From assembly GCA_011390785.1 (NCBI GenBank), contig JAABRR010000001.1, positions 124,001-188,000 on the forward strand: 64,000 nt of DNA, read 5' to 3'. Within the stretch, counting starts at the first letter, position 1, and each line of letters opens with the position of its first letter. The notes under the pieces were generated by a model. The model was not told where the DNA came from, searched no databases, and saw nothing but the letters and a program-made list of their open reading frames with translations. Shown piece after piece: positions 1-25,857 of this stretch. Source of the DNA: Sphingobacteriia bacterium (lineage in GTDB: Bacteria > Bacteroidota > Bacteroidia > Bacteroidales > UBA7960). Both the position numbers and the translations under genes were made by a program.

Positions 1-1509
1 AAAATCTTCTACCAAGTAAAGGTCTGTAACTTCCTCAACACGGTCGATGGCTTCTATCCTAACATTGTCAATAACAACGCGGTCGTTATCTGTAGAGTTA
101 AAATGGCGGAAAGCCACACGGATATTCTGACTCTGATAGCCTGACAATTCAACCATACGGGGTTGATATACCCAATTAGGATCCTGTGAGCTGAGCGTTT
201 CTTCAAAAATCATCTCGTAATCTTCGGCATCAAACTCTTGCTGGTCATCCGTAACAGATGCTACCCACACACTGTATGTTTCATCGCGATGTTGAGCGTT
301 TCCAGATGTTGATGCAACATCCCATTTCAGGTAGAGGTTATCGTAAACATCGGGAATTTCATTCAATTCCACATTGATGAACAGGTTGGCATCCAAAACT
401 TTGAAAGAGCCTGCTGTATCAAAAAATAAATCCTTTACCACGGTATAGGTATAATAACCAGGGGTAAGATTGAATACATTCTCATTTACTGGACCAGATT
501 CTCCATTAACAGTGATTATAAAGTCATTCAATAATTCTCCTTCGGTATCCAGGATTGTAAACGTAACAGCATATTCAGGGTCGGTTCCGGCATCGAGGGT
601 AACATCTACTGTAATACCCTCATCATCAACGGTAAAAGTACCGTTATAGGTTAAAAACCCATCTTTCTGAACGAAAAACTCATACTCGCCAGGGAAATAC
701 TGGAAATCAGTCTGCCCCTGATCGTAGGTAACTCCTTCTATGGAAACGATTTCAGTGCCATTGGCATCGGTTATATTGAAATCGACATCAAATTTGGATT
801 CCACAATTCGGAAATCATCAAAATAAAACAGCACATCCTCGGTTGTACCATCCACATCGCGGGTTATATGAAAAGAATCAAAATAAAAATGACCGGCACC
901 ATCGGCATTCAAATCCATTTCACCATTACCATTAACCCAGCCAAATACATTTGCTGCGTCATTATAATCCCATGTAAGTCTTTTCCAGCCTGTCCAATCA
1001 ACGGTTATCCATTCTGAACCTTCCAGGTTAAACAAGGCATCACGAACCATAAACTTAAACCGGTTTCCTTTTCCATCACCATAAAGAAAAACTTCTATGG
1101 CTTCGCCAGGAAAAAATCTTTTCCCCACAACATTTGCCATATCAGGATTAGAATACAACCTAACATAGTGACTGGCAAAACCACCGGCGGTGGGTTCGAA
1201 CCATTCAAGGGTATCTGATGTATTCCAAACAATTCCCAACTCCAATGAGCCTGTACTTTCTGTATCCGGATTTACAACTTCAACATTATGATTGCGGTAA
1301 GTTATGTATAGGCCATCTTCATCCTGGAAGATAACTCCGGTAGTTTGGCCAGACCCGCCCGGGTCTCTAAAAAAGTTAGCCCCTTCTGGTGTTTCAAAAT
1401 CGGCTATGGTGCGAAACGATCTGGTATCGACAACCTGTGCCATTATGCTATTACTGATTGTTGCAAATAAGAACACCAATAAAAATAAATTTGTAATTCG
1501 TTTTGTCAT
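1..1509 (-). CDS. Partial exported multidomain protein, related to the neighbouring amidase
   Basis: An open frame of 503 codons runs off the left edge, so the C-terminus is missing. The start ATG at 1509 is followed by a signal peptide ending in SIMAQ. Residues about 30-200 form a beta-sandwich-like domain with the motifs FLYGDGKGNRFKFMVRD and EWITVDWTGWKRLTWD; the same motifs occur in the amidase just upstream (1591-5385). Two carboxypeptidase-regulatory-like repeats follow (about 230-390), then a choice-of-anchor-J/cleaved-adhesin-like domain ending near RVAFRHFNSTDNDRVVIDNV. No catalytic motif is visible in the part present. It is probably the last gene of the leftward peptidoglycan block, 81 bases after the amidase. 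Family knowledge suggests a surface carbohydrate- or cell-wall-binding role, and a T9SS tail may lie outside the window (inference). Confidence 0.8.
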   Translation of the reverse strand, partial: MTKRITNLFLLVFLFATISNSIMAQVVDTRSFRTIADFETPEGANFFRDPGGSGQTTGVIFQDEDGLYITYRNHNVEVVNPDTESTGSLELGIVWNTSDTLEWFEPTAGGFASHYVRLYSNPDMANVVGKRFFPGEAIEVFLYGDGKGNRFKFMVRDALFNLEGSEWITVDWTGWKRLTWDYNDAANVFGWVNGNGEMDLNADGAGHFYFDSFHITRDVDGTTEDVLFYFDDFRIVESKFDVDFNITDANGTEIVSIEGVTYDQGQTDFQYFPGEYEFFVQKDGFLTYNGTFTVDDEGITVDVTLDAGTDPEYAVTFTILDTEGELLNDFIITVNGESGPVNENVFNLTPGYYTYTVVKDLFFDTAGSFKVLDANLFINVELNEIPDVYDNLYLKWDVASTSGNAQHRDETYSVWVASVTDDQQEFDAEDYEMIFEETLSSQDPNWVYQPRMVELSGYQSQNIRVAFRHFNSTDNDRVVIDNVRIEAIDRVEEVTDLYLVEDF

Positions 1510-1590
1510 GACTATTTGATTTTAGTTTGTAATTTGGATTGTATGAAATGTGATTATACCGGCTAATACTATTCTTTGCCGGCTATTTAG

Positions 1591-4500
1591 TTATCGAACT
1601 ATTTGGATTTTATGATAAGTAATATTCACTCCGGTAGATAACCTGACAAGGTAGAGTCCTTCTGGCAAATGGCTTACATCAATTGTTTTTCTTGTTCCAT
1701 CGAACGTAAGTAAATGTTCTCCAGTAATACTAATTAGCACAATTTCGCTAATCCCGTTTTGGTTTTCAGCAATAAAGAGCTTATCCTGAACTGGATTAGG
1801 ATAAATATGCTGCGCTTTCACCTGAATAGTCTCTACATCTATAGTAGAAGAAAAATGTGCAGTAAAAGTAATATCAGAAGCAGGTATGGTATAAGAAAAG
1901 AAATCGCTGGTGTTGATAATGTTTTCATTTTCGTCTGTCCAGTGCACAAATATATAGTTTTGCGACGGTGTAGCCGAAATAAAAACCTGGGTTCCTTCTT
2001 CATATTGCCCTTCCCCGGAAACGATTCCCCCTTCTGCGGGTTCTGCCAAAAGAGATAAATTATGAAACACCGGAAGCAATTCAAAATTTGCGATAATTTC
2101 ATAGTTATTGCCAGGCATTGAGAAAGTAAAACTGGCTTCGGTTGATAGAACATCGCCCTGACGGTTGGTCCAGTTGGTAAACAAATAACCATCAGCAGCT
2201 GTAGCTTCAGCCGTTATCTGCTCGGTAAACAAGTAAGTACCTGCACCGGTGGCAGTTCCCCCATCTTCAGGAAAAACATTAACGACCAAATCATATTGCC
2301 CTGTTTCAAATACTGCGGTAATACCAATATCATCACCCGGCATTATAAAGCTATAGGGAGATTCTGTTGATAGTGTGTTTCCTTCGTTATCTTCCCATCT
2401 TGCAAATACATAGCCTTGTTCGGGCTGTGCGGTAAGGGTAACTTGCTGCCCTTCGGCAAACTCACCTGCTCCACTTACATTTCCTGTTCCTTCTGGTAAT
2501 ACTATAGTGATTACGGCATAAACAGGTGCATCGCCCACTTCAATCTTATCGAGCATAAGCATATAATCATCTTCCGAAACATACTGAATGGCAAACCGGT
2601 AAACTTCACCGGCATAATCGCCCAGGAACCATGAATAATGGGTCCAGACATCGGGTACTTCAATAAAGGCACTATCAGAAATCTGAATGAAATTCTCTGG
2701 ATCGAATTCAAACGTTTCGTTATCATCCAGAGAAATATAGACATTTATTCTTTCCGGGCCAAAGGTTTCTTCATCAACTATAATAGATTTAGCAAAAAAG
2801 CTTAATTCAGTGAAATTGGTAGCGCGAAGCTGGGGTGAAATCAGCCATTTATCTTCTCCAATCTTTTGCGACATCATAGCAATCAAATACTTATCTCCAT
2901 CATAAGCAGGATGATTCCCTTCAATAGGCGGGGTAGTTTCAGAAGGGTTCATCACTTTCCATGCATATGGCTCGCCTGCTCCAGGGAAGGTGAAACCTGC
3001 AGGATTCCAGGTAATTTCACCATCTTCATCAACAGTGCGCCAGGGAAACAGGTCGGTGGAAAAGTCTTCGTAATCCTGCCAGTTCTCAAAAAGGGTGGTT
3101 GAATATTGGGTTTCATCTTTTCTCACAAAGTGCAAATGATCAAAATAGATTGCTCCGACACTCTCTGCATTCTCCCCAGCCGTAACATGGAATCCATCCA
3201 TATAAAAATTGCTTCCTTCCAAAATGCCATTTCCTCCAACACCAGCCCATGGGAAAGCCTGATCGTTGGCCAGGTCCCAGGCTACCAACTTCCATCCCAA
3301 CCAGTCGAGGGTAACCCATTCCTGGGTTTCGAGCTGATTGAGACCATCGCGGATCATCAATCGCACTTTATTTCCAGATCCATCACCAAAAACATATACC
3401 TGCAAAACATCGCCAATATTAAATCTGACTCCATTTTGTGGGGCTGTTGGGGGTAAATACTGCCGGATATATGGAATTCCAATGTATCCAGAATCCCAGC
3501 CATAGCTCAGTTTCATACTGCCGGTGCTTCCCACAGCATGATTCACTATATTGGTATTAAAGCTGCGCGATGTAAGCTCGGCTAATACTCCTACTGTTTG
3601 GCCAGCCTGCAGTGGACCCCACCAATCAGAAACACCGGAATCAAATCCATCGATAAGTCCGCTTTGAAGAATGGGTTCATCAATAATATAAAAACGGAGA
3701 GACTGCTCTTCCGAGAGATTATAAAACTCATCGCTAAGCCCTGCAGCAATTGTAACGTAATATACCAAACCGGGTTGAAGATCTTCTACGGGAAAAAAGT
3801 GAATTACACTCTGCTCGTTAATTACCTGGTGATCAACTAAACCACTCACGGGTTCGGATTCGCTCCCTGTAGAAAGCACTACCGTATTTTGCTGTATGGT
3901 TTGATCCAATATCATTTCGTCGTAAACCAGCCTGATAACCGGACGCAATGTTCGCACAGGAGTATCTTCGGTGGGTGAAAAGTCTATTATCGCTGGTGCA
4001 TCAGTGTCTTCATCAGACATGGTGATCTGGAAAACATAGTCGCCCCCTTCTACTCCATCCCCATCGCCATCAAGAAACTGTTCGGTGAGAGAATTTTTGG
4101 CTATATTTCCATCGAAAGTGAGCGTATAATCTTGCAGATAAGCAAATTCTGTGGTTTGTATAACTAGCTCAAAATCACTTTCCCATGAAACGGAATAATT
4201 AGCTGGTGGATCAATGGACAAAGCATCTTCTGTGGCTTCCTGATCCATGATGCGGCTAAACCGCACATTCAGGGGTGTGCCGGGAACCAACTCAATAAGC
4301 TCCTCTGCCGGATTAACAGAAACCACTACCGGGGGGATGAGCGAAACCATCATTGGATCGAGAAAGCTCAGGTTTTCTTCGGTAAGTCCGTTAGGATTGG
4401 AAACAATATCAAGATCAACTGTAAGAGTATCATAATTGGCCCTGGCAAACTCAACCGTAACGGTGGTATTGGGTATAAGACTATCGATGAAGAAAAATCC

Positions 4501-5385
4501 GTTGCGCAACTGATTTGGGTTGCTGGAGTAGTTATTGAAAAGCGATTCGTATCCATCTGTTACGTAGGTTTTATCCCCAATAGTAACAGTAACATCGTTC
4601 AGAGGCAAATCGGTTTCTAAGTCGCGAATAATTCCAGTTGCCAAACCAATGGCTGGCCGGTCGATATCATGCCATTGCAGGAAAGAACGAAAGGCAGACA
4701 AGGCTTCGAGCACCTTCCACTCGGCATTCATATTGAGCATTTGCTGGCCGGGGTTTGTGTGAAACCCTGCTTCGCTGAGCAATGATGCCATATTGGTTGT
4801 ACGATTTACGTGCAGATAAGGCCATTGATTGGTATGATTATGAATATCTCCCTGATAAAAAACACGGTCGGCAAAATTACCTCTTCGCCCGATGCGCATG
4901 GCACCGGTAAGATCAAAATCAAGAATAGCACCGTAAGCGCCACCTCCTTCGGGGGTTTTCTCAACCAGTACGCCGTTGCTTTTCCAGCCTCCATAAAGCA
5001 TCAAAGTAAGATTTGTTGCCGGAGAAACGGCCGCATCGCTATGGATAGAATAATAGAAATCGGCACCCAGCGTATTCGCCAATGCTGTGCGACCTTCCAG
5101 CGAAATGTTATCCTGATCGGTCATACGCGCCATGAAAACAGTATCAATATCGGTTTGCTCAAGAAACATTCCACGTAAAGCAAGGCCTACACGTAGCACC
5201 TTCTGCGCTTCAGAATAATTGAAGAGACCCATATTTTCCGTTTGCGAGTGGCCGGGATCAATAAAAAGTGTCCAGTTATTTAACCCGGTAATTTCCTGTG
5301 CGGTAGCATCTCTTGCATTCCCCAGCATAAGAAAAACCAGCAGTGCTGCTAATATATGTCTTGATAGTAATAGTTGGGTTTTCAT
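1591..5385 (-). CDS. T9SS-exported N-acetylmuramoyl-L-alanine amidase (Amidase_3), multidomain
   Basis: A 1264-residue secreted enzyme expected to cut the amide bond between MurNAc and L-Ala of the stem peptide. I chose the ATG at 5385 because it gives a clean signal peptide (MKTQLLLSRHILAALLVFLM, cleavage after DATAQ); the longer frame adds a lysine-rich leader. The Amidase_3 domain spans about 36-240 with the full zinc/catalytic set: H46 (DPGHSQ), E59 (YSEAQ), H115 (YSIHSDA) and E205 (LLSEAGFHTNP). Next come a carboxypeptidase-regulatory-like domain, two Big_5/Ig-like domains, a beta-sandwich shared with the neighbour at 1-1509, a cleaved-adhesin-like domain, and three divergent InlB-type repeats each ending near IxxxFE. 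The C-terminus (IYPNPVQDKLFIAE to the end) is a type A T9SS sorting domain. The size and modules are far beyond a housekeeping amidase and point to a surface or released enzyme acting on external or shed cell wall. Confidence 0.9.
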   Translation of the reverse strand: MKTQLLLSRHILAALLVFLMLGNARDATAQEITGLNNWTLFIDPGHSQTENMGLFNYSEAQKVLRVGLALRGMFLEQTDIDTVFMARMTDQDNISLEGRTALANTLGADFYYSIHSDAAVSPATNLTLMLYGGWKSNGVLVEKTPEGGGAYGAILDFDLTGAMRIGRRGNFADRVFYQGDIHNHTNQWPYLHVNRTTNMASLLSEAGFHTNPGQQMLNMNAEWKVLEALSAFRSFLQWHDIDRPAIGLATGIIRDLETDLPLNDVTVTIGDKTYVTDGYESLFNNYSSNPNQLRNGFFFIDSLIPNTTVTVEFARANYDTLTVDLDIVSNPNGLTEENLSFLDPMMVSLIPPVVVSVNPAEELIELVPGTPLNVRFSRIMDQEATEDALSIDPPANYSVSWESDFELVIQTTEFAYLQDYTLTFDGNIAKNSLTEQFLDGDGDGVEGGDYVFQITMSDEDTDAPAIIDFSPTEDTPVRTLRPVIRLVYDEMILDQTIQQNTVVLSTGSESEPVSGLVDHQVINEQSVIHFFPVEDLQPGLVYYVTIAAGLSDEFYNLSEEQSLRFYIIDEPILQSGLIDGFDSGVSDWWGPLQAGQTVGVLAELTSRSFNTNIVNHAVGSTGSMKLSYGWDSGYIGIPYIRQYLPPTAPQNGVRFNIGDVLQVYVFGDGSGNKVRLMIRDGLNQLETQEWVTLDWLGWKLVAWDLANDQAFPWAGVGGNGILEGSNFYMDGFHVTAGENAESVGAIYFDHLHFVRKDETQYSTTLFENWQDYEDFSTDLFPWRTVDEDGEITWNPAGFTFPGAGEPYAWKVMNPSETTPPIEGNHPAYDGDKYLIAMMSQKIGEDKWLISPQLRATNFTELSFFAKSIIVDEETFGPERINVYISLDDNETFEFDPENFIQISDSAFIEVPDVWTHYSWFLGDYAGEVYRFAIQYVSEDDYMLMLDKIEVGDAPVYAVITIVLPEGTGNVSGAGEFAEGQQVTLTAQPEQGYVFARWEDNEGNTLSTESPYSFIMPGDDIGITAVFETGQYDLVVNVFPEDGGTATGAGTYLFTEQITAEATAADGYLFTNWTNRQGDVLSTEASFTFSMPGNNYEIIANFELLPVFHNLSLLAEPAEGGIVSGEGQYEEGTQVFISATPSQNYIFVHWTDENENIINTSDFFSYTIPASDITFTAHFSSTIDVETIQVKAQHIYPNPVQDKLFIAENQNGISEIVLISITGEHLLTFDGTRKTIDVSHLPEGLYLVRLSTGVNITYHKIQIVR

Positions 5386-5646: not shown

Positions 5647-5651
5647 TCCAA

Positions 5652-6644
5652 CTAATCTAACGCCAATCTATAAATTACGCCATCCTCCGGGCTATCAAAA
5701 AGAACATATTTGCCATTGGGAGAAACGGCTGGTTTGAGTGTAGTGTGGGAAATGTTGGCAGTGAGTGGGTATGACTCTCCGGTATTCACATCAACAGCAT
5801 AAAGCTCAGCCCCAGTAATATTGTAACCATCATCATCAGCAACCGAAACAATCACATATTTTTCTCCGGGTAACCAGGCAGCCTTTTCACCACGACCCAA
5901 AGAAATCAGGTTTTCGCCATTTGCATCCATTACATATAGTCCCAAGCCCTGCACCTGGAAAGATATCTTGTTCCCTTCCGGCGATGGGCTGAGATTAAAT
6001 AAAACTCTTCCTTCAAAGTTTCCCACCTCTTTTGATGATTTGCTGGCTTCGTCAAAGAGAAAAATCTTATCGAGATGAGAATACAAAACAGATTTTGGGG
6101 TTAAACCTGTTCTTTGCAATTTGTTCCATGTAACAGTTTCCATTTTGCCACTTCTTACAAAAACCACTTCCGTACCTGTGGATGACCATACAGGTAAACT
6201 GTTTATGCCCCGGGTTTTCTCCACTAATATTTCGTAGGAAGCATTACGAACATCATAAATTTTGATTTGATGCAGTCGCCTGCGGTTTTCCGTAATAGCA
6301 CTCCGGCCCAGAATATATGCACCATCGGGCGACCATGAAAATCCGAAACCAACACTCTGATCGGTTGTTAAAATGCGAATATTGGTTCCGTTAGAATCGG
6401 CGAGCCATATCCCATTATAATTGTCCGATGTAAATGCAACGGTTTTAGCATCGGGCGACCATTGCGCGCTCATTACAGTTTGCCCGGGTAGCGAGATAAA
6501 GACTTCCGCTGATTCGGCAGGTTTGGGTTGAGAATATGTGGGTTTAGCAAAAGCAATCAAGAATAATAATACAATCCAAAGTGGTTTTTGTACCGCCACA
6601 AAGCTACGGGAACAAATCTTCCTGTTTTTTATCAGACAGCTCAT
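5652..6644 (-). CDS. Exported PD40/TolB-like beta-propeller protein
   Basis: 330 residues. A signal sequence with a long basic n-region precedes a hydrophobic stretch (WIVLLFLIAFA) and cleavage near TYSQ. The rest is a WD40-like PD40 propeller. Repeats show the typical SPDG-type turns: AQWSPDAKTVAFTSD, FSWSPDGAYILGRS, VWSSTGTEVVFVRS, SPSPEGNKISFQV and VSPNGKYVLFDSPEDG. There is no enzymatic motif. Such propellers bind proteins or ligands in the periplasm; the TolB C-terminal domain is the best known case, but the TolB N-terminal domain is absent. It lies between the DigH-like hydrolase and the amidase on the same strand (102 and 266 bases away), so it probably belongs to the peptidoglycan block. 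A binding or sensing role is inference. Confidence 0.8.
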   Translation of the reverse strand: MSCLIKNRKICSRSFVAVQKPLWIVLLFLIAFAKPTYSQPKPAESAEVFISLPGQTVMSAQWSPDAKTVAFTSDNYNGIWLADSNGTNIRILTTDQSVGFGFSWSPDGAYILGRSAITENRRRLHQIKIYDVRNASYEILVEKTRGINSLPVWSSTGTEVVFVRSGKMETVTWNKLQRTGLTPKSVLYSHLDKIFLFDEASKSSKEVGNFEGRVLFNLSPSPEGNKISFQVQGLGLYVMDANGENLISLGRGEKAAWLPGEKYVIVSVADDDGYNITGAELYAVDVNTGESYPLTANISHTTLKPAVSPNGKYVLFDSPEDGVIYRLALD

Positions 6645-6746: not shown

Positions 6747-9191
6747 TTAAGGTGATTTCACAAGCCTGCCAACAAATTTTTTCCCATTGCTGGTTTTCAC
6801 ATGAATAAAATAAAATCCTGGGGCAACACCAGAAAGATCAAATTCTTCGCTATCGGTGGCCTGATTTCTGGAATATTGAGCAATTACCCTGCCCCTTGAA
6901 TCATGCAGTTGAATTATTCTGTTCTCAAGAATTTGGGGATAAATTACCTGGCATTTCTGATGAACAGGGTTGGGATAGACTTTTATTACAGTGGAGGGTT
7001 TATTTTCTGCAATACCCAAAGAACCCACATAAAAATTCACCACAGCAGACCACTGCGCCCCCCCGCAATTATTTACCCCTCTTACACGGGCAAAATAATC
7101 CTGATTTGCCTCGGACAGCGATGCAGTATAAAGATTAAAACTAACGGGGTGTTGATCAACAACCAGAGATTCCTCCGAAAAAGTATTATCAGTAGCAATC
7201 TGAATCTGGTAATGGCTGATATCGGGTACTGAATTCCACTGAAAGCTTACGGATAGATTTGTAGTCTGCATTCCGTTGGCAGGTGAATTGATTTGAGTTG
7301 CTGTGGGTTGCCCGGTAAAGAAACTCCCCTGATCAGACCAGGAAACCGATGTGCCCGATACTGCTTTAATCCGGTAAACATAATCCTGTTGCCCGGCCAG
7401 CAAGCCATCGGGCATTAGAAAAGATGTTTCTGTTAATAGATGTGAATTATAAATTATTGAGCCCGGACTTTGTGCCAATGCTACCTGCACCTGGTAAAAT
7501 TCGCTGTCTTCAACAGGCTGCCACGAAAATGCAAATCCATCACAGACTGTTTCGTTAACTGGACTGGAAACAACAGCCGACATAAGGTAATCATATCCAA
7601 CAAAAGAAGACTGATTGCCAGTAAAACGGTTAGGCATGAATTCCTGCACAGAGAAAAAAGCTTTGTTAAGATGGTGAAAAGTAGAAAAATCTTTTCCAAA
7701 AACAACCTGCAAAAACTCCGGGTCATTTTTATCTTCTTTGGTGGGAAGCTGGTCAGCCCCATACAATAAAAACCGCTGAACCGGAGAGTTAATGATGTTC
7801 ATAGCAGCAACATCCTGTTCAGAACCTGCGATAACGCCAATTTCAGCAATTTGAGGTGCTCCGGGTTGAATTTCCGGAAGCCATTCCATTTCTGGAAAAA
7901 TGGCCTTCTCTGCGTACAAATCTCCAGAAAGGTAAGCTGCCAGATCTTTAGAAGGATCAACCGTGCTGCGTGTGTTGTAAAAAATCATTCCCTGTGCCAG
8001 GTTGTTGGGACTGTTGCGGTTGGCAATAATCTGATTGCCAATTTCTGTAAGCGGCCAGTTGCTCTTTTCAGTAAAGTCGCCCGTTTTTAAAGCCAGTACT
8101 TCATGTATAGCTGCTCTATATTTTTCTGATTCCGGATCATCTGCATTTTTACCATCAAACAAACGATAAGAACCCATACTGGGATAATGATGTCTGTCAT
8201 ATCGTTTGGCTTCGTTGCCCCACCATTGAGTAAGAGTAACGAAATCCTGGGCACCACCCATTAACCAGTATAGCTGAGGTGAAATGTAATCAACCGATTG
8301 ATCGCGTAACCAGGCCAGGGGATCGCAGTTAATTGCATTGTAATTATCATTACCGGTTATGCCTGCAGGTAGAGTTGTGCCCCACTGCGTGGCAGCAGAA
8401 CTTTGGGTAGAATAAATTCCGGCAGGGCTCACCCCAAAGATAACTCCGGGGTTTACAGACTTTATCGTATCATATACTTCACGAATCATATTGTTTACTG
8501 AAGCTCTGCGAAAGTTCCCTCTGTTAAGATTGCTGTACCACTGCCCCACAAACTCCTGAGTAGCATAAGCATCATAGGTTTGCTGATCATATGATGTGGG
8601 AAGATTGGATGGATAGAAATAATCATCAAATAAAACGCCATCCAACTCATAATGAGTAATTAGATCGGCTACAATGCTTTTTATTAGCTGAGTAGTAGCC
8701 GGTAGCCCAGGATCGAAATACGTTTTTCCGTTATAGGAAATTATAAGTTCAGGATGTGTTTGGGAATAGTTGCCAGGTTTTCCGGCATATTCGCCGGCTG
8801 TATTTTCAAAACGATAAGGGTTGAGCCAGGCATGTACTTCCATACCGCGCTTATTGGCTTCCTGAAGCAGAAAAGCAAGGGGATCATAAGAAGGCTGCTG
8901 CCCCCGGTTGCCGGTAATCCATGCTGACCAGGGCTCGTAAGATGACAGGTAAAGAGCATCGGCATTGGGCCGTACCTGGAACATCACAGCGTTAAAATTG
9001 GCTGCCTGTAACTTATCCAGAATGGTAATCAAACGGGCTTGTTGTGCAGCCGCAGAAACACCGGTGCTTTGAGGCCAGTCAATATTATAAACGCTGGTAA
9101 GCCAGACCGAACGTAATTCGCGTTCGGGCTGAGCATGAATAGCGGTTATTGATAGTAATGCTAAGAATAAGGTTAGGTAGAGTTGTTTCAT
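6747..9191 (-). CDS. DigH/YngK-like family-10 glycosyl hydrolase with T9SS tail
   Basis: 814 residues with signal peptide MKQLYLTLFLALLSITAIHA. Residues about 24-400 form the GHL10 (DUF187) barrel: RSVWLTSVYNIDWP, MFQVRPNADALY, VHAWLNPYR, DGVLFDDYFYP (D189/D190, likely active-site region) and VDYISPQLYWL. E. coli DigH (YngK) of this family cuts glycan strands that have lost their stem peptides. Two fibronectin-III-like domains follow (about 545-720). The C-terminus, from VIKVYPNPVHQ through GFYFIHVKTSNGKK, is a type A T9SS sorting domain. The pairing with an amidase in the same block is logical: the amidase makes the denuded glycan that DigH prefers. Substrate is inferred from family and context. 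The spacing to the upstream PKD lipoprotein is 221 bases, so it could have its own promoter. Confidence 0.88.
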   Translation of the reverse strand: MKQLYLTLFLALLSITAIHAQPERELRSVWLTSVYNIDWPQSTGVSAAAQQARLITILDKLQAANFNAVMFQVRPNADALYLSSYEPWSAWITGNRGQQPSYDPLAFLLQEANKRGMEVHAWLNPYRFENTAGEYAGKPGNYSQTHPELIISYNGKTYFDPGLPATTQLIKSIVADLITHYELDGVLFDDYFYPSNLPTSYDQQTYDAYATQEFVGQWYSNLNRGNFRRASVNNMIREVYDTIKSVNPGVIFGVSPAGIYSTQSSAATQWGTTLPAGITGNDNYNAINCDPLAWLRDQSVDYISPQLYWLMGGAQDFVTLTQWWGNEAKRYDRHHYPSMGSYRLFDGKNADDPESEKYRAAIHEVLALKTGDFTEKSNWPLTEIGNQIIANRNSPNNLAQGMIFYNTRSTVDPSKDLAAYLSGDLYAEKAIFPEMEWLPEIQPGAPQIAEIGVIAGSEQDVAAMNIINSPVQRFLLYGADQLPTKEDKNDPEFLQVVFGKDFSTFHHLNKAFFSVQEFMPNRFTGNQSSFVGYDYLMSAVVSSPVNETVCDGFAFSWQPVEDSEFYQVQVALAQSPGSIIYNSHLLTETSFLMPDGLLAGQQDYVYRIKAVSGTSVSWSDQGSFFTGQPTATQINSPANGMQTTNLSVSFQWNSVPDISHYQIQIATDNTFSEESLVVDQHPVSFNLYTASLSEANQDYFARVRGVNNCGGAQWSAVVNFYVGSLGIAENKPSTVIKVYPNPVHQKCQVIYPQILENRIIQLHDSRGRVIAQYSRNQATDSEEFDLSGVAPGFYFIHVKTSNGKKFVGRLVKSP

Positions 9192-11843: not shown

Positions 11844-11856
11844 CGTGAAGTGGGAT

Positions 11857-17444: not shown

Positions 17445-18287
17445 CTATTTTTCAGAGATATGATATTGAATAAGTCCTTCCATGGGGTCAGCATTTAGCC
17501 TACCCAACTTAAAATTATGATCAATGGCAACACTTTCAAGAATTGAATGAAAATGCCATGCTATGCTACCCGTAAAATTAACAGGCAAATCGAAAGCCTT
17601 TTCGTATTGAGCAACATTTCTCGTGAAAAACTCCGAAAAACTATCATATATTATCTTTCTTACTTCAGGTTGACTTTGATGAGTATTCAAAAACCTGGTA
17701 AAGGAAGCCATGTACCTGTTGGGATAAGGCTTTCGGTAACAATTTTCGAGGATTTCTGCAGCAGTTGTATCGTATGTTTCAAAAAACAGTTTAATCAATT
17801 GTTGAGGAAGCTGTTTTTTTAAAACATCTGCGAGTAACTTTTTACCCAATACGGCACCACTGCCTTCGTCCCCCAGAATATACCCCAGGGGGGAAACGTT
17901 GGATATAACAGAATGTCCGTTGTAGTAACAGGAATTGGAACCCGTGCCCAAAATGGCCACAATGCCTTCTTTATTACCACAAAGAGAATGTGCAGCGGCA
18001 AGCAGATCACTCTCAATATATATCTTATTAATTCCGAAAAACGACTCCAGGGCAATATAAAGCTCCCTTTTCTTAATTTCATTGGTGGCACCGGCTCCAT
18101 AAAAATAAACCGACGTCAGATTATCGCGACTTAATGTAAACTCTTTCTCCAGAGTTTTTACAATTTCTGAACTTTGTTGAAAAAAGGGATTGATTCCTGA
18201 AGTAACACAATCAGTTGCCACCTTTATTGAATCAGCAAAAAGATGCCATTTGGTTTTTGTTGACCCACTGTCGGCAATTAACTTCAT
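17445..18287 (-). CDS. murK: BadF/BadG-type N-acetylhexosamine kinase, probably MurNAc kinase (MurK-like)
   Basis: 280 residues, ASKHA fold. The phosphate-1 loop is at the start (DSGSTKTKWH, D6), with later nucleotide-binding motifs AILGTGSNSC and GDEGSGAVLG. The family contains GlcNAc kinases and the MurNAc kinase MurK known from Tannerella forsythia, which makes MurNAc-6-P for MurQ. Being 29 bases upstream of murQ favours MurNAc as substrate, although GlcNAc kinase (NagK-like) activity cannot be excluded from sequence. It is the first leftward gene of the peptidoglycan block; its promoter should lie in the 228-base divergent gap with the golvesin-type amidase. Confidence 0.85.
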   Translation of the reverse strand: MKLIADSGSTKTKWHLFADSIKVATDCVTSGINPFFQQSSEIVKTLEKEFTLSRDNLTSVYFYGAGATNEIKKRELYIALESFFGINKIYIESDLLAAAHSLCGNKEGIVAILGTGSNSCYYNGHSVISNVSPLGYILGDEGSGAVLGKKLLADVLKKQLPQQLIKLFFETYDTTAAEILENCYRKPYPNRYMASFTRFLNTHQSQPEVRKIIYDSFSEFFTRNVAQYEKAFDLPVNFTGSIAWHFHSILESVAIDHNFKLGRLNADPMEGLIQYHISEK

Positions 18288-18515: not shown

Positions 18516-21500
18516 ATGTTTTTCAGACTCTTACAATTTTTTTTCTTTATATTCCTGTTCATATTGTTTTTGGGCTTGCAATCAGCACACGCGCAGAGTA
18601 CTGACCGACGTACGGTAAGAATGACAAACCTTGCAGAGAAAAAAACCAGCGAACTCCCCACTTTCTTTTCTCCCTGGAATCATGTGGGTAGAGTTTCTCT
18701 TGACAGCATAATAATTCAAAGAGACAACAAACTCATTTTATTCTATTTCAACAATAACATCACCCATATTCCCATTCGTTATCCCTGGTTGCAATCTCTC
18801 GAAACACAAATCAGAAATATGTTGGGATGGAGATTTCGCAAGTATGAAATTAAATTATTTGCCCCCGGAAAACTACTAAGTGAGTTCATTCCCAATTATT
18901 ATCGTGATAACTACCTGCCAGCAGACAGTTCGCGCATAAGGCCATCAAAACCTATTGAAACACCGCTGGTAAAAAGGATTCCTGCCGAAAATATTACTCA
19001 TGGCCTTTACGGTAATCATATTGCCTTGTGGCATAGCCACGGGTATTATTATAACGCATCTAAAGATCGCTGGCAATGGCAAAGAGCCAGACTATTTGAA
19101 ACCGTAGAAGATATTTTTCCTGCTACTTATGTTCTGCAATATATTGCTCCAATGCTTGAAAATGCCGGAGCCAATGTATTTATTCCAAGAGAAAGAGACT
19201 CACAAGTTCACGAAGTAGTGGTTGACAATGATTTTAGCACCGGAGATTCGCAACTTATTATCCAGAACGGAAACAATGAGTGGATAAATATTCCCGGTGG
19301 TTTTAAGAAAAAGGATACTCTTTTCGATGGTGATAACCCTTTTTTAATGGGTTCACATTTATCTGTTAAGGCCAATACTGGTGCATCATTAATTTATGTC
19401 CCCTATATTCCTGAAAACGGAGATTATGCCGTTTATGTTTCATGGGCAAAAAGTGATGATAATATTCCTGATGCCTTATATACAGTTAATTACGCCGGAG
19501 GAAGTGCTTCCTTCCAGGTGAAGCAACAGATGGGCTTTGGAACCTGGATCTACCTGGGAACCTTTTATTTTGAACAGGGCCGGCAAGCTGGAAATGGAAG
19601 TGTTACTCTGTATACCCATTCAGAAGCACAGGGCACTGTTACATCGGATGCTGTTCGTTTTGGCGGAGGGATGGGTAATGTTGCCCGACGCCCTCTACCA
19701 ACGGGTATGGCCAACCAAAGATCAGCAACCGACACCGGGAGTTTTCAAAATGATGAAAGAAATATTGATCCGAATTTCGGACAAAAGACATGGAAGACTT
19801 CTGGTCGTGCAAGATGGACAGAAGGGTCACGTTATTACCTTCAGTACGCAGGCATGCCAGATACATTGATTTATTCACTTAACTCTGGTAAAAACGACTA
19901 CAACGATGATTTTATGTCACGAGGTGAGTGGTTAAATTATCTCCAGGGAAGCCCCAATGGTCCTCAAAAAGAAAGAGACAATCCGGGTTTAGGTATTCCC
20001 ATTGATCTTTCGCTGGCATTTCATACCGACGCCGGTATAACACCCAACGATTCAGTTATTGGAACCCTTGCGATTTATAGTTCGCAGCGGGATGAAGGTA
20101 TTTTTCCTGATGGTATATCCCGAATGGCCAGCCGCGACTTGACCGATATTGTTCAGGATCAGATAGTACATGATATACGAAACCTGTATAACCCCAACTG
20201 GACCCGCCGGGCACTTTGGGACAGGCAATACTCTGAAGCATGGCGTCCCAATGTACCGGCTATGTTGCTCGAGTTATTATCGCACCAAAACATGGCAGAT
20301 ATGCAATATGGACTCGATCCCCATTTTCAGTTTGACGTAAGCCGGGCAATTTACAAAGGAATTACCCGGTTCCTGACTCACCAGGAAGGCAAAGAAGCCG
20401 TTATTCAACCCCTGCCACCCGAATCATTGATGATGAAAATAACTGGTGAACGAACCATTACCTTATCCTGGCAACCTACTGAGGATTTGCTGGAACCATC
20501 CGCCATTGCTGAAAACTATATTGTATTTATCCGAGAGGAAGGAAAAGGATTTGATCAGGGAACCATTACTTCCAATCCGTATATGGAAATTGAGTTGCCA
20601 TCATGGAATAAAATATACAGCTTTAAGGTTACGGCGACAAATAGTGGTGGCGAAAGTTTTCCTTCAGAAATTCTTTCAGCATCTTTTACCCCCTGGCAGA
20701 ATAATACCATTCTTATTGTGAACGGTTTTGATCGTATAAGCCGACCCTTATCTTTTGATTTAGAATACCTTGCTGGCCACACATGGTGGGACGACCATGC
20801 CATACCCTACATCTCTTCTTCGAATTACACAGGATTACAGTATGATTTTGACCGCAACTCTCCCTGGCTCGATGACGACAGCCCTGGCTGGGGTGCCAGC
20901 TATGCCAATTATGAAGGGGAAGTAATAGCCGGAAATACCTTTGATTACCCCTATATTCATGGGCAATCAACCAGAAATGCAGGATATTCATTTATTTCAA
21001 CAAGCCGTAAAGCCTTTGAAAAAACAGAGGATATTCTCTCCAGTCAATTCATGGCTGTAAATCTGATCATGGGAAAACAAAAAGGGATTCCGGCACTCAA
21101 CCAAAAAGACTCATTAATTTTTAAGGTGTTTACTCCTTCCCTAATCAAAGTTTTAGAGAATTATTCACAAACCGGAGGAAATATTTTTATCTCTGGAGCA
21201 TACATTAGTACGGATAACAACAATCAAGAAGATAGTCTCGCTTTAAAATTTACAGAAAAGGTATTGGGGTATAAATGGCGAACCAACAATGCCACAACCA
21301 AAAAACAAATATACTTAACAGATAATGCTCCGGTTGATTTTCCGAAACTGCTGGAGTTTGCAACTCTGCCCAATTCAATTATATACCACGTGGAAGCTCC
21401 TGATGGCATTGAACCATTTGGGGAAACAAGCAAAACCATTTACCGTTATAACGAAAATAACGTGAGCGCCGGAGTAGTTCATCAATCCGCCCATAAAATT

Positions 21501-21590
21501 GTATCACTAGGGTTTCCTTTTGAATCCATTATAACACAAGAAGGCAGAGATGAATTAATGAAAGCAATACTTAAGTTTTTTAATGAATAA
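18516..21590 (+). CDS. N-acetylmuramoyl-L-alanine amidase with inserted golvesin-like domain
   Basis: 1024 residues with a signal peptide (hydrophobic stretch 6-22, cleavage after AHAQ). The Amidase_3-like catalytic set is split: His of WHSHGYYY (H173/H175) and E195 (RLFETVED) come before, H503 (LAFHTDAG) and E586 (LLELLSHQN) after, an inserted beta domain at about 238-388. That insert matches golvesin/xanthan-lyase-type binding domains (NGDYAVYVSWAKS, TVNYAGGSASFQV, GTWIYLGTFYF, TSDAVRFGGG). A fibronectin-III domain follows (about 640-735). The last 290 residues (ILIVNGFDRISRP, TGGNIFISGAYISTD, KIVSLGFPFESI) resemble a class-I glutamine-amidotransferase-like fold without a clear active site. 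There is no T9SS tail, so it is probably periplasmic or otherwise anchored. It is divergent from murK and first in the rightward unit with the glycosyltransferase (34-base gap). Confidence 0.85.
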   Translation: MFFRLLQFFFFIFLFILFLGLQSAHAQSTDRRTVRMTNLAEKKTSELPTFFSPWNHVGRVSLDSIIIQRDNKLILFYFNNNITHIPIRYPWLQSLETQIRNMLGWRFRKYEIKLFAPGKLLSEFIPNYYRDNYLPADSSRIRPSKPIETPLVKRIPAENITHGLYGNHIALWHSHGYYYNASKDRWQWQRARLFETVEDIFPATYVLQYIAPMLENAGANVFIPRERDSQVHEVVVDNDFSTGDSQLIIQNGNNEWINIPGGFKKKDTLFDGDNPFLMGSHLSVKANTGASLIYVPYIPENGDYAVYVSWAKSDDNIPDALYTVNYAGGSASFQVKQQMGFGTWIYLGTFYFEQGRQAGNGSVTLYTHSEAQGTVTSDAVRFGGGMGNVARRPLPTGMANQRSATDTGSFQNDERNIDPNFGQKTWKTSGRARWTEGSRYYLQYAGMPDTLIYSLNSGKNDYNDDFMSRGEWLNYLQGSPNGPQKERDNPGLGIPIDLSLAFHTDAGITPNDSVIGTLAIYSSQRDEGIFPDGISRMASRDLTDIVQDQIVHDIRNLYNPNWTRRALWDRQYSEAWRPNVPAMLLELLSHQNMADMQYGLDPHFQFDVSRAIYKGITRFLTHQEGKEAVIQPLPPESLMMKITGERTITLSWQPTEDLLEPSAIAENYIVFIREEGKGFDQGTITSNPYMEIELPSWNKIYSFKVTATNSGGESFPSEILSASFTPWQNNTILIVNGFDRISRPLSFDLEYLAGHTWWDDHAIPYISSSNYTGLQYDFDRNSPWLDDDSPGWGASYANYEGEVIAGNTFDYPYIHGQSTRNAGYSFISTSRKAFEKTEDILSSQFMAVNLIMGKQKGIPALNQKDSLIFKVFTPSLIKVLENYSQTGGNIFISGAYISTDNNNQEDSLALKFTEKVLGYKWRTNNATTKKQIYLTDNAPVDFPKLLEFATLPNSIIYHVEAPDGIEPFGETSKTIYRYNENNVSAGVVHQSAHKIVSLGFPFESIITQEGRDELMKAILKFFNE

Positions 21591-21624: not shown

Positions 21625-23103
21625 ATGACTGAAAAAATTACTTGTTTTATTCCTGCCGGAGAAATTAAGGATATGAGAATAACCTTGAAGGAACTCAATG
21701 AAAATCCTCTGGTTAAAGAAATTTTTATCACGGGTAAAAACACTATAAAGGGATTTGAAATACCAGAAAAAGCCTGTTTCTCAGAAATTGAAAATATACA
21801 AAGCACTGCCGGAGTAAAGAAAATGGCTGAATTATCAAAAACAGTTTTTACTTTAATTTATACCAAGACTCTTCCTTTAAAATTGGGTGCCTGGGCTCTG
21901 GAGAGAATGATTCAGGTGGCTGAAAACACTTTCGCAGGGATGATTTATTCTGATCATTATCAAATGAGAGAAGAAAAACTATTACCATCTCCGGTAATTG
22001 ATTATCAGGACGGTAGCCTGCGCGACGACTTCAATTTTGGATCACTCCTGTTATTTAATACGCAATTGCTGGGCCGTGCAGTATGGAATATGATCCACGA
22101 ATACCAGTTTGCCGCACTTTATGAACTCAGGCTTAAAATTTCGCAGCACAACCGCTTGTTTCGTATCCCGGAATTTCTATACACTGAAATGGAAACCGAT
22201 ACACGCCAAACAGGAGAAAAAATATTTGATTATGTTGATCCAAAGAACCGGAATGTGCAAATCGAAATGGAAAAAGTTTGCTCGCAGCATCTTAAAGATA
22301 TAGGAGCCTGGCTAGAACCTGACTTTACGGATGTAAAATTTACGGAAGCCGATTTCCCAGTGGAAGCATCAGTTATTATTCCGGTAAGAAACAGGATAAA
22401 AACTATTGAAGATGCTATTCGCTCGGTTTTCAGTCAAAAAACTGATTTTGCATTTAACCTGATTGTAGTTGACAATCATTCTTCTGATGGCACAACAGAA
22501 TTGCTGCAAAATCTTGCGATTGAAGACCAGAGACTAATACACGTTACTCCAGAGCGCAATGATCTGGGAATTGGTGGTTGCTGGAATGAAGGTATTTACC
22601 ATAAAATGTGCGGTAAGTTTGCCATTCAGCTGGATAGTGATGACCTGTACATCAACGACAATGTGTTGCAACAAATCGTTGATGCCTTTTACAGGCAAAA
22701 TTGTGCCATGGTTGTGGGAAGTTATCAGATGGTAAACTTTAAACTGGAAGAGATACCCCCCGGTCTGATCGACCACCGGGAATGGACACCAGATAATGGT
22801 CGCAATAATGCATTACGGATTAATGGATTAGGAGCGCCCAGAGCCTTTTATACTCCAGTAATTCGTAACATCAGGGTTCCCAATGTAAGTTACGGCGAAG
22901 ATTATGCACTGGCACTGGCCATTTCGCGTCATTATCAGATTGGTAGAATATATGAGCCCTTGTATTTATGCCGGCGCTGGGATGACAATACTGATGCATC
23001 GCTTAACGTAAGCAAAATGAATGAGCATAATACCTATAAAGATCGCATCAGAACAATTGAATTATGGGCTAGAAAAGAATTAGTGAAAAAGCTGACCTCA
23101 TAA
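21625..23103 (+). CDS. Tandem GT-A family-2 glycosyltransferase
   Basis: 492 residues, no signal peptide or membrane helix, so cytoplasmic. The C-terminal half (about 255-490) is a normal GT2 domain: SVIIPVRNRIKTIEDAIRSV, VVDNHSSDGTTELL, the DxD-type LDSDDLY, and GEDYALALA as the likely catalytic-base region. The N-terminal half (1-210) looks like a second, degenerate GT-A unit (VKEIFITGKN, FAGMIYSDHYQM, IPEFLYTEMETD). The sugar donor and acceptor cannot be read from the sequence. It is 34 bases after the amidase and 64 before the DUF4922 gene, so co-transcription is likely. A glycosyltransferase inside a wall-salvage cluster suggests reuse of recovered sugar, but this is inference. Confidence 0.82.
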   Translation: MTEKITCFIPAGEIKDMRITLKELNENPLVKEIFITGKNTIKGFEIPEKACFSEIENIQSTAGVKKMAELSKTVFTLIYTKTLPLKLGAWALERMIQVAENTFAGMIYSDHYQMREEKLLPSPVIDYQDGSLRDDFNFGSLLLFNTQLLGRAVWNMIHEYQFAALYELRLKISQHNRLFRIPEFLYTEMETDTRQTGEKIFDYVDPKNRNVQIEMEKVCSQHLKDIGAWLEPDFTDVKFTEADFPVEASVIIPVRNRIKTIEDAIRSVFSQKTDFAFNLIVVDNHSSDGTTELLQNLAIEDQRLIHVTPERNDLGIGGCWNEGIYHKMCGKFAIQLDSDDLYINDNVLQQIVDAFYRQNCAMVVGSYQMVNFKLEEIPPGLIDHREWTPDNGRNNALRINGLGAPRAFYTPVIRNIRVPNVSYGEDYALALAISRHYQIGRIYEPLYLCRRWDDNTDASLNVSKMNEHNTYKDRIRTIELWARKELVKKLTS

Positions 23104-23167: not shown

Positions 23168-24115
23168 ATGCAGCAGCAATTACAAAACAGAGTAAATCAA
23201 CTGCTTAAAAGTCAGATACAGGAATGGGAGCTGGCTGCAAAGAACTACCTTGGGCTATCCGGTGCATTGAAAAAGCATTTTTTACTGGGAGGTGATGTCG
23301 GTGTTGATGTGCAGTATAATCCTGAGCGCATCTATTCATCTTCTGCCAAAGTTGATACAAAATCTATCACCGAACGAAAATGTTTTCTTTGCCCCGCCCA
23401 TCTACCTTCACAGCAAAAGAGTGTTGGGCTTGGCAAAGATTATCTGATATTAGTCAATCCCTTCCCTATTTTCCCCAGGCATCTTACTATACCCCATAGA
23501 AATCATCAACCCCAGCTGATTTTGGGGAATTTCGGCACAATGCTCAATCTGGCCAGAGAACTCGATGAATTTGAAATCTTTTACAATGGCCCTCGATGTG
23601 GTGCCTCGGCACCTGATCACTTCCACTTTCAGGCTGGCAACAAAGGGTTTATGCCCATCCTTGAAGATTTCCTGACCGTTCACAGAACCGTAATAAAGGG
23701 GAATAAAGATGCAAGAGCCATGTATTTCGACAAATACATAAGAAAGTGTATTATTCTGCAGAGTAATGAGAAGCAGATTCTAACCCATTGGTTTGACCAA
23801 TTGTATCAGATCATGGCACAAATGACCGGACACGAGCCTGAGCCCATGATGAATATTCTGGCTTCCTGGGATAAAGGACAATGGCTGGTATTCATATTCC
23901 CAAGAATGTTGCATCGTCCCTGGCAATATTTTGACGAAACGCAACAAAAAATCCTGCTCAGTCCGGCATCGGTAGATCTGGGTGGCGTGCTCATTACTCC
24001 GCGTGAAGAAGATTTTAAGAAGATTACCCCGTCAGATATTATTGATATCTTTGGTCAGGTAACCTGGAATGATTCTAACTTTGAAAAACTCATTGAATTG
24101 TTTTCTAAAACGTAA
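23168..24115 (+). CDS. DUF4922 protein, GalT/HIT-superfamily nucleotidyltransferase or phosphorylase
   Basis: 315 residues, cytoplasmic. The histidine motif DHFHFQ (H151, H153, Q155) is the HxHxQ form found in galactose-1-phosphate uridylyltransferase, Ap4A phosphorylase and GDP-L-galactose phosphorylase, rather than the HxHxH form of HIT hydrolases; the middle histidine should carry the nucleotidyl group. A CFLC pair (C72, C75) resembles a metal site or the cysteine pair of other HIT proteins. ILVNPFPIFPRHLTIPHRNH is the conserved strand region. These families move NMP to or from a sugar phosphate or phosphate. In this position a role in activating or breaking down a nucleotide sugar linked to wall salvage is possible. 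Substrate unknown. Confidence 0.8.
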   Translation: MQQQLQNRVNQLLKSQIQEWELAAKNYLGLSGALKKHFLLGGDVGVDVQYNPERIYSSSAKVDTKSITERKCFLCPAHLPSQQKSVGLGKDYLILVNPFPIFPRHLTIPHRNHQPQLILGNFGTMLNLARELDEFEIFYNGPRCGASAPDHFHFQAGNKGFMPILEDFLTVHRTVIKGNKDARAMYFDKYIRKCIILQSNEKQILTHWFDQLYQIMAQMTGHEPEPMMNILASWDKGQWLVFIFPRMLHRPWQYFDETQQKILLSPASVDLGGVLITPREEDFKKITPSDIIDIFGQVTWNDSNFEKLIELFSKT

Positions 24116-24445: not shown

Positions 24446-24516
24446 GCTAATCAAATAAAAGTAAACATGTAAATTTGATCTCAGGTTAGTCTTATAATCA
24501 CTTAAATCGAGGAGCC

Positions 24517-25857
24517 ATGCAACCCACCATTAACGTAGGCATTTTATTCGCCCCTTCAATCCATTTTTTTCTTAGTGAAGAATTTGAGTGTAGTGCTCTT
24601 AAAAAACCGATTTCAGGCCCTGTAATTGTAGAAAAATCTTCAAAAGAGAAAGCAATGTTGATTTTTGATAAGAATGAAAGGCTCGAGATTCAACTTCCTG
24701 TCTCATTTCAACCCAAAGACCCTGAGAAGGCATCATTCGATTTGATGGATGTTACCATTGGAATCAACTTTCACTGGGAGCGAAAAGAGAACCAGCGGTT
24801 TACCGGAGAGTTAACCATTATAGACGAGAAAAAGCACTTCACTGCCATCAACAAGTTACCCCTTGAAGAATATCTTAAAAGTGTAATAAGTTCAGAAATG
24901 AGTGCCACATCGAGTAAGGAATTACTCAAAGCCCACGCAGTAGTATCGAGAAGCTGGTTATTGGCCCAGATTGAAAAAGGTGAAGCACTTAAAAAAACAG
25001 GTAAACAAATTTCGGGGTATGATAACGATGAAGAACATATAAGATGGTATGATCGTGAAGATCATGAAAACTTCCATGTTTGTGCAGATGATCATTGTCA
25101 ACGATACCAGGGCATTACAAAAACAACTACCGATCTGGTAAATACGGCAATTGATGAAACATTCGGGCAGGTATTAACCTATAACGACCAAATTTGCGAT
25201 GCGCGGTATTCCAAGTGTTGTGGTGGTATTACAGAAGTATTTGAAAATGTTTGGGAGCCCGTTTATCATCCTTACCTGGCAAAAGTGATTGACAATGACA
25301 ACCCCCCTTCAGGTTTTGATACAGAATTAGATACAGAAGACAGAGTGCAGCATTGGATCACTGAAAATCCGGATGCGTTTTGCAACACAACTGACAAAGA
25401 AATACTGGCTCAGGTGTTAAACGATTACGACCAGGAAACGCCTAATTTTTATCGTTGGAAAGAAGAATTTACCCAGCAGGAGCTGGCATCCTTGCTAAAA
25501 AAACGTCTCGGCTTATTAGTGGGAGCTATTAAAGAACTTGTTCCCATTGAGCGGGGGACATCGGGTCGGTTGGTAAAATTAAAAATCGTTGGAACAGAGA
25601 AAACCATTACCATTGGGAAAGAACTTGAAATACGAAAAGCTTTTTCCAACTCTCATCTGTATAGCTCAGCCTTTATTATTGAAAGCAAAAACAGTATTGA
25701 TGGTGTCCCCCAAAATTTCACCTTCAGGGGTGCCGGCTGGGGCCATGGTGTAGGGTTTTGCCAGATTGGCGCTGCGGTAATGGGTGCGAAAAACTACTCT
25801 TACATAGAAATTCTGACACATTATTTCAAAGGAGCTGAACTGGAACGGAAGTATTAG
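24517..25857 (+). CDS. SpoIID/LytB-domain protein, putative lytic transglycosylase, no signal peptide
   Basis: 446 residues. The SpoIID core is clear: NKLPLEEYLKSVISSEM with E127 as the likely catalytic acid (equivalent to the conserved Glu of Bacillus SpoIID), then LKAHAVVSRSWLLA, and the C-terminal AGWGHGVGFCQIGAAVMG motif. SpoIID cuts glycan strands that have no stem peptides, leaving anhydroMurNAc ends. Unusually, the N-terminus (MQPTINVGILFAPSIHFFLS) is not a signal peptide. A long insert (about 150-340) with several Cys and His (CADDHC, SKCCGG) lies between the two core motifs. The start at 24517 is supported by GAGGAG just upstream. It is the last gene of the rightward unit, followed by a strong terminator. 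Either it acts on imported glycan in the cytoplasm or export is non-classical. Confidence 0.85.
   Translation: MQPTINVGILFAPSIHFFLSEEFECSALKKPISGPVIVEKSSKEKAMLIFDKNERLEIQLPVSFQPKDPEKASFDLMDVTIGINFHWERKENQRFTGELTIIDEKKHFTAINKLPLEEYLKSVISSEMSATSSKELLKAHAVVSRSWLLAQIEKGEALKKTGKQISGYDNDEEHIRWYDREDHENFHVCADDHCQRYQGITKTTTDLVNTAIDETFGQVLTYNDQICDARYSKCCGGITEVFENVWEPVYHPYLAKVIDNDNPPSGFDTELDTEDRVQHWITENPDAFCNTTDKEILAQVLNDYDQETPNFYRWKEEFTQQELASLLKKRLGLLVGAIKELVPIERGTSGRLVKLKIVGTEKTITIGKELEIRKAFSNSHLYSSAFIIESKNSIDGVPQNFTFRGAGWGHGVGFCQIGAAVMGAKNYSYIEILTHYFKGAELERKY

Follow-up and report, generated by a model that had tools for sequence, protein, structure and literature searches.

A candidate polysaccharide-utilisation-style locus for peptidoglycan glycan, built on SusC/SusD, MurK and MurQ, in a Bacteroidota genome

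Layout and gene content of the block

We analysed a stretch of 64,000 nucleotides (hereafter the window; G000:C75:124001-188000, on contig JAABRR010000001.1 of assembly GCA_011390785.1) from a Sphingobacteriia bacterium of the Bacteroidota, whose genome is represented by 4.8 Mb in 158 contigs, and found in it a divergent gene block in which genes predicted for the catabolism of N-acetylmuramic acid (MurNAc) adjoin a SusC/SusD outer-membrane pair and hydrolases of the bacterial cell wall. The original prediction, made from the letters of the DNA, placed MurQ and a BadF-type kinase directly upstream of SusC/SusD, and two amidases, a DigH-like glycosidase and a SpoIID-like protein in the same divergent block; all the genes it named were recovered by open reading frame (ORF) and domain calls, and both statements were confirmed (TIGR00274, PF01869 and the SusCD domains for the former). 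On the minus strand the order of transcription is MurK-type kinase, MurQ, SusC, SusD, a lipoprotein that we call Lp281, a PKD/propeller lipoprotein, the DigH-like enzyme, a TolB-like propeller, an amidase with a sorting tail of the type IX secretion system (T9SS) and, as the last minus-strand gene, an adhesin-like protein truncated by the window start, and on the plus strand a Golvesin-interrupted Amidase_3 protein is followed by GT2, DUF4922 and SpoIID proteins. With likely start codons, the minus-strand gaps from MurK outward are 29, 156, 45, 13, 19, 221, 102, 266 and 81 bp, so several transcripts are possible, and the gap of about 156 bp between MurQ and SusC is indicative that a single transcript is not required.

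MurQ, the MurNAc 6-phosphate etherase (16567..17415, minus strand), scores above the cut-off of its NCBIfam equivalog model TIGR00274 (319 vs 302 bits) and has a solved relative, 4s12. The MurK-type (BadF/BcrAD) amino-sugar kinase (17445..18287, minus strand) matches PF01869 at 31.6 bits (cut-off 31.5), and its closest solved relatives are 1zxo, 1zbs, 8oqk, 8ow7, 8oqw and 8ow9, among them entries titled N-acetylglucosamine (GlcNAc) kinases or putative MurNAc kinases; two PDB entries of this group are named in a paper on Tannerella MurK. We take 8oqw for MurK because its residue numbering fits. In an alignment with 8oqw and 29 relatives, the window kinase keeps the catalytic Asp as well as the small residues of the S-P-L triplet at its lactyl pocket; the triplet is kept by most, not all, of the 29. 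PMC10465942 links the S-P-L residues to MurNAc specificity and cautions that MurNAc binding cannot be read from sequence alone. The window kinase is a predicted MurNAc 6-kinase, which may prefer MurNAc to GlcNAc.

The SusC-like TonB-dependent outer-membrane transporter (13390..16416, minus strand), with Plug, TonB_dep_Rec_b-barrel and CarbopepD_reg_2 domains, is followed by a SusD-like (SusD-like_2) surface lipoprotein (11857..13377, minus strand; PF12771, 147 bits), which likely starts at an internal ATG near 13344 with a lipobox, judged by eye, behind it. Lp281 (11040..11885, minus strand), a lipoprotein of no known family, matched neither Pfam nor NCBIfam at E 0.001; it is modelled as an Ig-like sandwich with a helical insert (AlphaFold2 predicted local distance difference test (pLDDT) 87.9). 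At E<=0.001 Foldseek found nothing similar to this model, and the fold points to no function: the structural matches were only common Ig-like folds, the best of which (Z 10.9 over 109 residues) was equalled by antibody domains. A model built in this analysis detected Lp281 in 24 of 80 SusD loci, and it is likely an auxiliary surface protein. The next lipoprotein (9413..11020, minus strand) combines PKD repeats (PF18911, 45.4 bits) with a beta-propeller (AlphaFold2 pLDDT 89.1); a function was sought for it by fold as well and set aside, its predicted structure matching propellers generally. The acidic residues that follow its lipid cysteine, seen by eye, suggest that it is surface-exposed.

Two hydrolases of the minus strand are predicted to be secreted by the T9SS. 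The DigH-like GHL10 glycosidase (6747..9191, minus strand; PF02638, 202.8 bits against a cut-off of 27.9) carries an fn3 domain and a sorting tail (PF18962, 40.7 bits), and the Amidase_3 N-acetylmuramoyl-L-alanine amidase (1591..5385, minus strand; PF01520, 50.7 bits) ends in a similar tail (PF18962, 43 bits). The ORF of the amidase spans 1591-5472, and a start at 5385 is likelier by eye because the signal-peptide-like stretch comes after it. Four Amidase_3 positions of this protein are conserved in 8/8 sequences; in the family they serve as zinc-ligand and catalytic residues. The tails attributed to both enzymes in the original prediction were borne out as type A tails, with PF18962 and TIGR04183 above cut-off, and the genome encodes the secretion system as judged by SprA (SprA_N, 583.6 bits), the one T9SS part sought. 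By sequence, the sole solved match of the DigH-like enzyme is Cwp19 (5oq2). Cwp19 is a lytic transglycosylase, and anhydro products from the DigH-like enzyme are therefore possible. The GHL10 family also matches in E. coli among our control genomes, and we take E. coli DigH to be a GHL10 protein. A second SusCD pair of the same genome lies on contig C150 (L225, G000:C150:1-16000) with two GHL10 enzymes, a DUF5009/MurT-like gene, a DUF4623 protein and two ROK proteins; its SusD reaches only 94 bits against the model of the window's SusD, and therefore either GHL10 joined SusCD more than once or the C150 system is a sister system.

The other members of the block are the TolB-like beta-propeller with a signal peptide by eye (5652..6644, minus strand; TIGR02800, partial, 54.8 bits against a cut-off of 343) and the four plus-strand proteins. 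The first of these (18516..21590, plus strand) has an Amidase_3 domain into which a Golvesin_C domain (68.3 bits) is inserted, a signal peptide by eye and no T9SS tail that we could find; its Amidase_3 match falls under the Pfam gathering score (26.0 vs 27 bits), and the four zinc-ligand and catalytic positions are kept in 9/9 sequences, window included. The GT2-family protein (21625..23103, plus strand; PF00535, 77.8 bits), close to MurK and MurQ in relatives, and the DUF4922 protein (23168..24115, plus strand; PF16269, 199 bits), with weak similarity to Ap4A phosphorylase, are members of the conserved core. The SpoIID-domain protein (24517..25857, plus strand; PF08486 and TIGR02669, above cut-off) has no visible signal peptide or membrane anchor, nor has any of the 14/14 sequences with an N-terminus, window included, as judged by eye without a predictor. 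It is therefore unlike a secreted wall hydrolase and is probably cytosolic, so that, among the candidate wall hydrolases of the original prediction, the T9SS-tailed amidase and the DigH-like enzyme stand as predicted secreted proteins whereas SpoIID does not. A cytosolic SpoIID-type enzyme is unexpected, and the form without a signal peptide is kept near GT2, DUF4922 and often AmpG. Beyond the block, a serpin gene (27729-28994; Pfam, 312.9 bits) adjoins gcvH and mazG genes.

Conservation of the block and its SusD clade

MurQ was sought in the genome of the window and in those of its relatives, 147 in all, and a match was counted as true MurQ at E < 1e-40; weaker matches look like other SIS proteins. 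True MurQ was found in 34/147 genomes, 14 of them among the 47 of the window's family, and the regions around it were compared for 29 of the other 33 genomes, that is, all save G092, G103, G133 and G135. SusC adjoins MurQ in 12 of the 14 family genomes with true MurQ, window included; in one of them (G043, locus L040) only a piece of SusC is seen, where the contig ends. In the remaining two, which are congeners (G004 and G008, loci L007 and L035), MurQ abuts DigH, and neither SusCD nor MurK was found beside it. The full order MurK-MurQ-SusC-SusD-Lp281-PKD-DigH recurs in six other family genomes (L031, L032, L037, L039, L041 and L042), with a TolB-like propeller at the same place in L032, L037 and L042, and L043 repeats the order of the window from MurQ onward. 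Outside the family, one of the 16 MurQ loci compared (L046, from one other family) has the same order, its SusC and SusD being 34 and 31% identical and its PKD protein more distant, and in L051 DigH and a piece of SusC lie 7-9 kb from MurQ in a different order. From MurK to DigH, the gene set of the original prediction is found again, in the same order, in related genomes. Since the order is conserved in relatives and across families, the block is more than chance, and chance proximity of its genes was ruled out.

A SusD search of the same 147 genomes (orthologues at E < 1e-130) gave orthologues in 15, among them 13 of the 47 family genomes, and in 11 of the 15 SusD lies within about 4 kb of MurQ. 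Among the others, G005 has SusD on another contig and SusC at a contig end beside MurQ, G117 has SusD away from MurQ and about 7 kb from NamZ, and in G003 and G009 (both 83% complete) SusD is present and MurQ was not found.

A SusD profile was then compared with GTDB genomes, its query having been built from loci chosen for lying beside MurQ; the SusD kin of the window proved to be Bacteroidota, and the best 80 of 96 confirmed relatives were mapped. The clade is seen in at least four Bacteroidota orders, and the 80 relatives include Membranihabitans and Portibacter (Saprospirales), Pontibacter (Cytophagales), Pedobacter, Parapedobacter and Sphingobacterium (the last of the Sphingobacteriales), Paludibacter (Bacteroidales), Dysgonomonas and Muribaculaceae. 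In a SusD tree (quick method, LG+G4, 98 rows, SusD pieces shorter than 380 residues dropped), with long-branch warnings on its deep branches, 60 of the 61 clade rows, the window's SusD included, fall on one branch with 100% support in the Shimodaira-Hasegawa-like approximate likelihood ratio test (SH-aLRT), and L085 is placed elsewhere with weak support.

Five markers (MurQ, MurK, DigH, NamZ and AmpG) were sought within 10 kb by hidden Markov models built from the MurQ-side loci, with thresholds of our own. At least one marker was present in 47/62 clade loci, in 2/18 outgroup loci (L125, with NamZ, and L084, which comes from the window's own family and is a fragment at a contig edge) and in 0/20 paralogous SusD loci of the same order. 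These paralogue controls, 20 of about 30 weaker SusD matches from the 147 genomes, are shorter (median total flank 9.8 kb vs 19.9 kb), and the count was therefore repeated for loci flanked by 6 kb or more on either side, which gave 34/40 clade, 1/9 outgroup and 0/8 paralogue loci, and 31/37 clade loci when the window's family was excluded. Neighbour analysis could have shown this susCD to pair with an unrelated substrate in relatives; on balance it favours the original prediction, the orthologous SusCD lying again near the markers. The label of marker presence requires 14 changes on the SusD tree, which is indicative that the neighbourhood is kept but often reshaped.

This reshaping can be seen in the local toolkits. 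In three Sphingobacteriales loci (L076, L078 and L086) NamZ and MurQ flank the SusC-SusD-Lp-PKD set, accompanied by a GH3-beta-lactamase in L086, by GH9 in L076 and L078, and by a polysaccharide deacetylase in L076. The Pontibacter locus (L075) has DigH, MurQ and an SSF symporter, and a metallophosphatase-PQQ protein is present in it as well as in L076, L078 and L086. A Paludibacter locus (L090) has a NAGPA protein two genes past DigH. In Membranihabitans marinus (L071, 17173-19773) the next long gene past DigH encodes a CHAT-domain protein.

A route for peptidoglycan glycan and its rivals

No inner-membrane carrier was found among the scanned genes of the block, and MurT, AmpG and NamZ, which go with a Tannerella-type cluster, are likewise not in it; all three are present elsewhere in the genome, which has two NamZ genes, a MurT-like gene adjoining a second GHL10 gene, an AmpG-like gene at a contig end, four GH3 genes and SprA. 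We use the name MurT because the query gene lies between NamZ and MurK in L048 and weakly matches DUF5009. In two genomes (G022 and G040) NamZ and AmpG are contiguous with the same block, and G083 has the order NamZ-AmpG-SpoIID-DUF4922-GT2-amidase-MurK-MurQ without SusCD. AnmK was not found in the window's genome, and MurNAc, not anhydro-MurNAc, is therefore the expected catabolite. On another contig (L186 8549-14257, G000:C95) NamZ adjoins a T9SS-tailed NAGPA and Golvesin protein and a PIG-L-like protein.

We consider it probable that the locus is a polysaccharide-utilisation-style system for peptidoglycan glycan, in which the MurNAc-salvage core of Bacteroidota is joined to a dedicated outer-membrane import module. 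The reading builds on gene content, conserved order, the recurrence of MurNAc and wall genes near members of the SusD clade, the sorting tails and the conserved active-site positions. In the proposed route, the T9SS-secreted amidase would free extracellular wall material of its stem peptides, the T9SS-secreted DigH-like enzyme would then cleave the peptide-free glycan, and SusC/SusD with Lp281 and the PKD/propeller protein would bind the fragments and pass them to the periplasm. There the fragments would be trimmed by NamZ and GH3 enzymes, whose genes lie elsewhere in the genome, and a MurT-like or AmpG-like carrier would move MurNAc or disaccharide to the cytosol. MurK would convert MurNAc to MurNAc 6-phosphate (MurNAc-6-P), and MurQ would convert MurNAc-6-P to GlcNAc 6-phosphate (GlcNAc-6-P) and lactate. 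The glycan may also reach the cytosol as an oligomer, where the SpoIID-type enzyme without a signal peptide would act. The order of these steps is drawn from family biochemistry, and we infer both it and the substrate of SusCD, as well as the foreign rather than shed origin of the wall. Peptidoglycan utilisation was the simplest reading in the original prediction, and it is supported here with corrections, namely that SpoIID is probably cytosolic, that the inner-membrane steps are encoded outside the window and that no on-site regulator was found.

Several observations weigh against this reading. Among the 40 well-flanked clade loci, MurQ itself lies within 10 kb in 19 and DigH in 31, and six have none of the five markers (L074, L079, L080, L082, L107 and L111), the next gene in L107 being a FadL-like porin; the loci are related, so the counts overstate the independent evidence. 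GH18 directly follows the PKD gene in 7/7 scanned Sphingobacteriales/Cytophagales loci (L074, L075, L076, L078, L080, L082 and L086), of which four also have MurQ and three (L074, L080 and L082) lack all five markers; the scan did not cover the marker-less L079 and L111. GH18 would suit chitin-like glycans and peptidoglycan alike, and in these loci another GlcNAc-containing glycan is possible. We infer the SusD ligand, as the sequence does not reveal the glycan, and the DigH activity of these proteins is predicted from family assignment. NagB was not found by PF01182, so that the route is drawn no further than GlcNAc-6-P; the only match to that family in the genome adjoins, by eye, a gene like that of glucose-6-phosphate dehydrogenase, is probably 6-phosphogluconolactonase and was rejected as NagB. 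The block has no on-site regulator that we found: none (extracytoplasmic function sigma/anti-sigma, hybrid two-component system or similar) is among the 17 Pfam-scanned genes of 1-27587. A sensor histidine kinase at 29928-32966, about 4 kb past SpoIID, is not tied to the locus; in a Membranihabitans relative, genes for a sigma-70 region 4 protein and for FecR lie upstream of SusC. The Bacteroidota promoter consensus matched the window 5 times vs 4.39 expected, and neither the interval separating MurK from the divergent amidase nor the region before SusC contains a match, so the search was uninformative.

The GH18 genes, the GH9 genes of L076 and L078 and the marker-less 6/40 loci would suit an importer of another GlcNAc-containing glycan (e.g., chitin oligomers or N-glycans), to which MurK, MurQ and DigH would be mere neighbours in an amino-sugar region, and a PDB entry titled chitin-binding SusD-like protein (8j0p) is a distant profile match (55.5 bits). 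As GH18 is present in every such locus scanned, our confidence in the peptidoglycan reading, and in the wider claim given below, is slightly reduced and that in this rival slightly raised. We nevertheless hold it unlikely, for the window block contains no GH18, GH19 or GH20 gene, MurQ, NamZ and MurK are MurNAc enzymes by family, and the association repeats with varied partner genes in several orders. Alternatively, the locus could recover the cell's own wall turnover or serve cell separation, with the secreted amidase and DigH acting on the septal or shed wall and SusCD retrieving the leakage. The core resembles the recycling cluster of PMC7670621, and E. coli DigH, according to PMC12288456, is specific to denuded glycan and acts in cell separation. 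The T9SS tails, however, would place both enzymes past the outer membrane and off the cell's own wall, and the presence of true MurQ in just 14/47 and of the SusD orthologue in 13/47 family genomes is odd for housekeeping, although many of these genomes are incomplete; we regard this explanation as improbable. That the tailed amidase and glycosidase are weapons against neighbours (predation or competition), with uptake as a by-product, is to our mind very improbable, as they are conserved together with transport and MurNAc catabolism.

Known systems and the outer-membrane step of MurNAc scavenging

The catabolic core of the peptidoglycan system proposed here is already known from Tannerella. 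According to PMC7670621 and PMC5790795, the nine-gene peptidoglycan salvage cluster of T. forsythia (Tanf_08345-08385) has AmpG, MurT, MurK and MurQ, and the former source has AmpG importing peptide-free disaccharides, with which an amidase-first route therefore fits. The window shares MurK and MurQ with this cluster, and its GT2, SpoIID and mostly DUF4922 genes co-occur with AmpG-like, NamZ, MurT-like, MurK and MurQ genes in clusters of other genomes (L048, L050 and L051), so that this part of the block resembles the salvage clusters of Tannerella type. What sets the window apart is the presence of SusCD, two lipoproteins and T9SS-tailed hydrolases, and the absence of MurT, AmpG and NamZ from the block. 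Neither SusC nor SusD is among the matches in 20 kb of L048 or in the account of the Tannerella cluster in the accessible text of the two papers, which describe MurNAc scavenging from the inner membrane inward; the available text of PMC7670621, outside its reference list, mentions no TonB, porin, SusC or outer membrane, and no outer-membrane importer appears in it.

Like SusCD polysaccharide-utilisation loci, the window has adjacent susC and susD, lipoproteins and co-located secreted degradative enzymes, the enzymes and lipoproteins being conserved together; unlike them, its enzymes and catabolic genes point to peptidoglycan, its degradative enzymes carry T9SS tails and no on-site regulator was found. 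The SusC/SusD locus of PMC6987092 serves xylan, and a NagZ-like GH3 lies outside that locus. The window's glycosidase shares the GHL10 family with DigH (YddW) of E. coli and Cwp19 of Clostridioides difficile and adds a T9SS tail and fn3, its activity being predicted only. The literature searched by title and abstract start gave no SusCD system tied to peptidoglycan, a weak absence as most subscription journals lie outside its coverage. The original prediction knew of no well-described example of the full set; the MurNAc core is known, and the new part is the SusCD outer-membrane module, which appears undescribed in the literature searched.

In the wider claim, which we favour at slightly better than even confidence, a distinct SusCD clade, inherited along with two lipoproteins, imports peptidoglycan glycan in at least four Bacteroidota orders, supplying the outer-membrane step of MurNAc scavenging and joined to varied local toolkits (DigH and the T9SS amidase here; NamZ, GH18 and GH3 in Pedobacter-type bacteria; DigH and NAGPA in Paludibacter). 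If true, the clade would name this step, which would be testable in genera with named strains among the matches (Pedobacter, Sphingobacterium, Parapedobacter, Pontibacter, Membranihabitans, Portibacter and Dysgonomonas). Wherever there are living and dying bacteria, peptidoglycan is a common polymer, and the gene set that recurs in the relatives of the window probably lets its bearers feed on bacterial cell wall.

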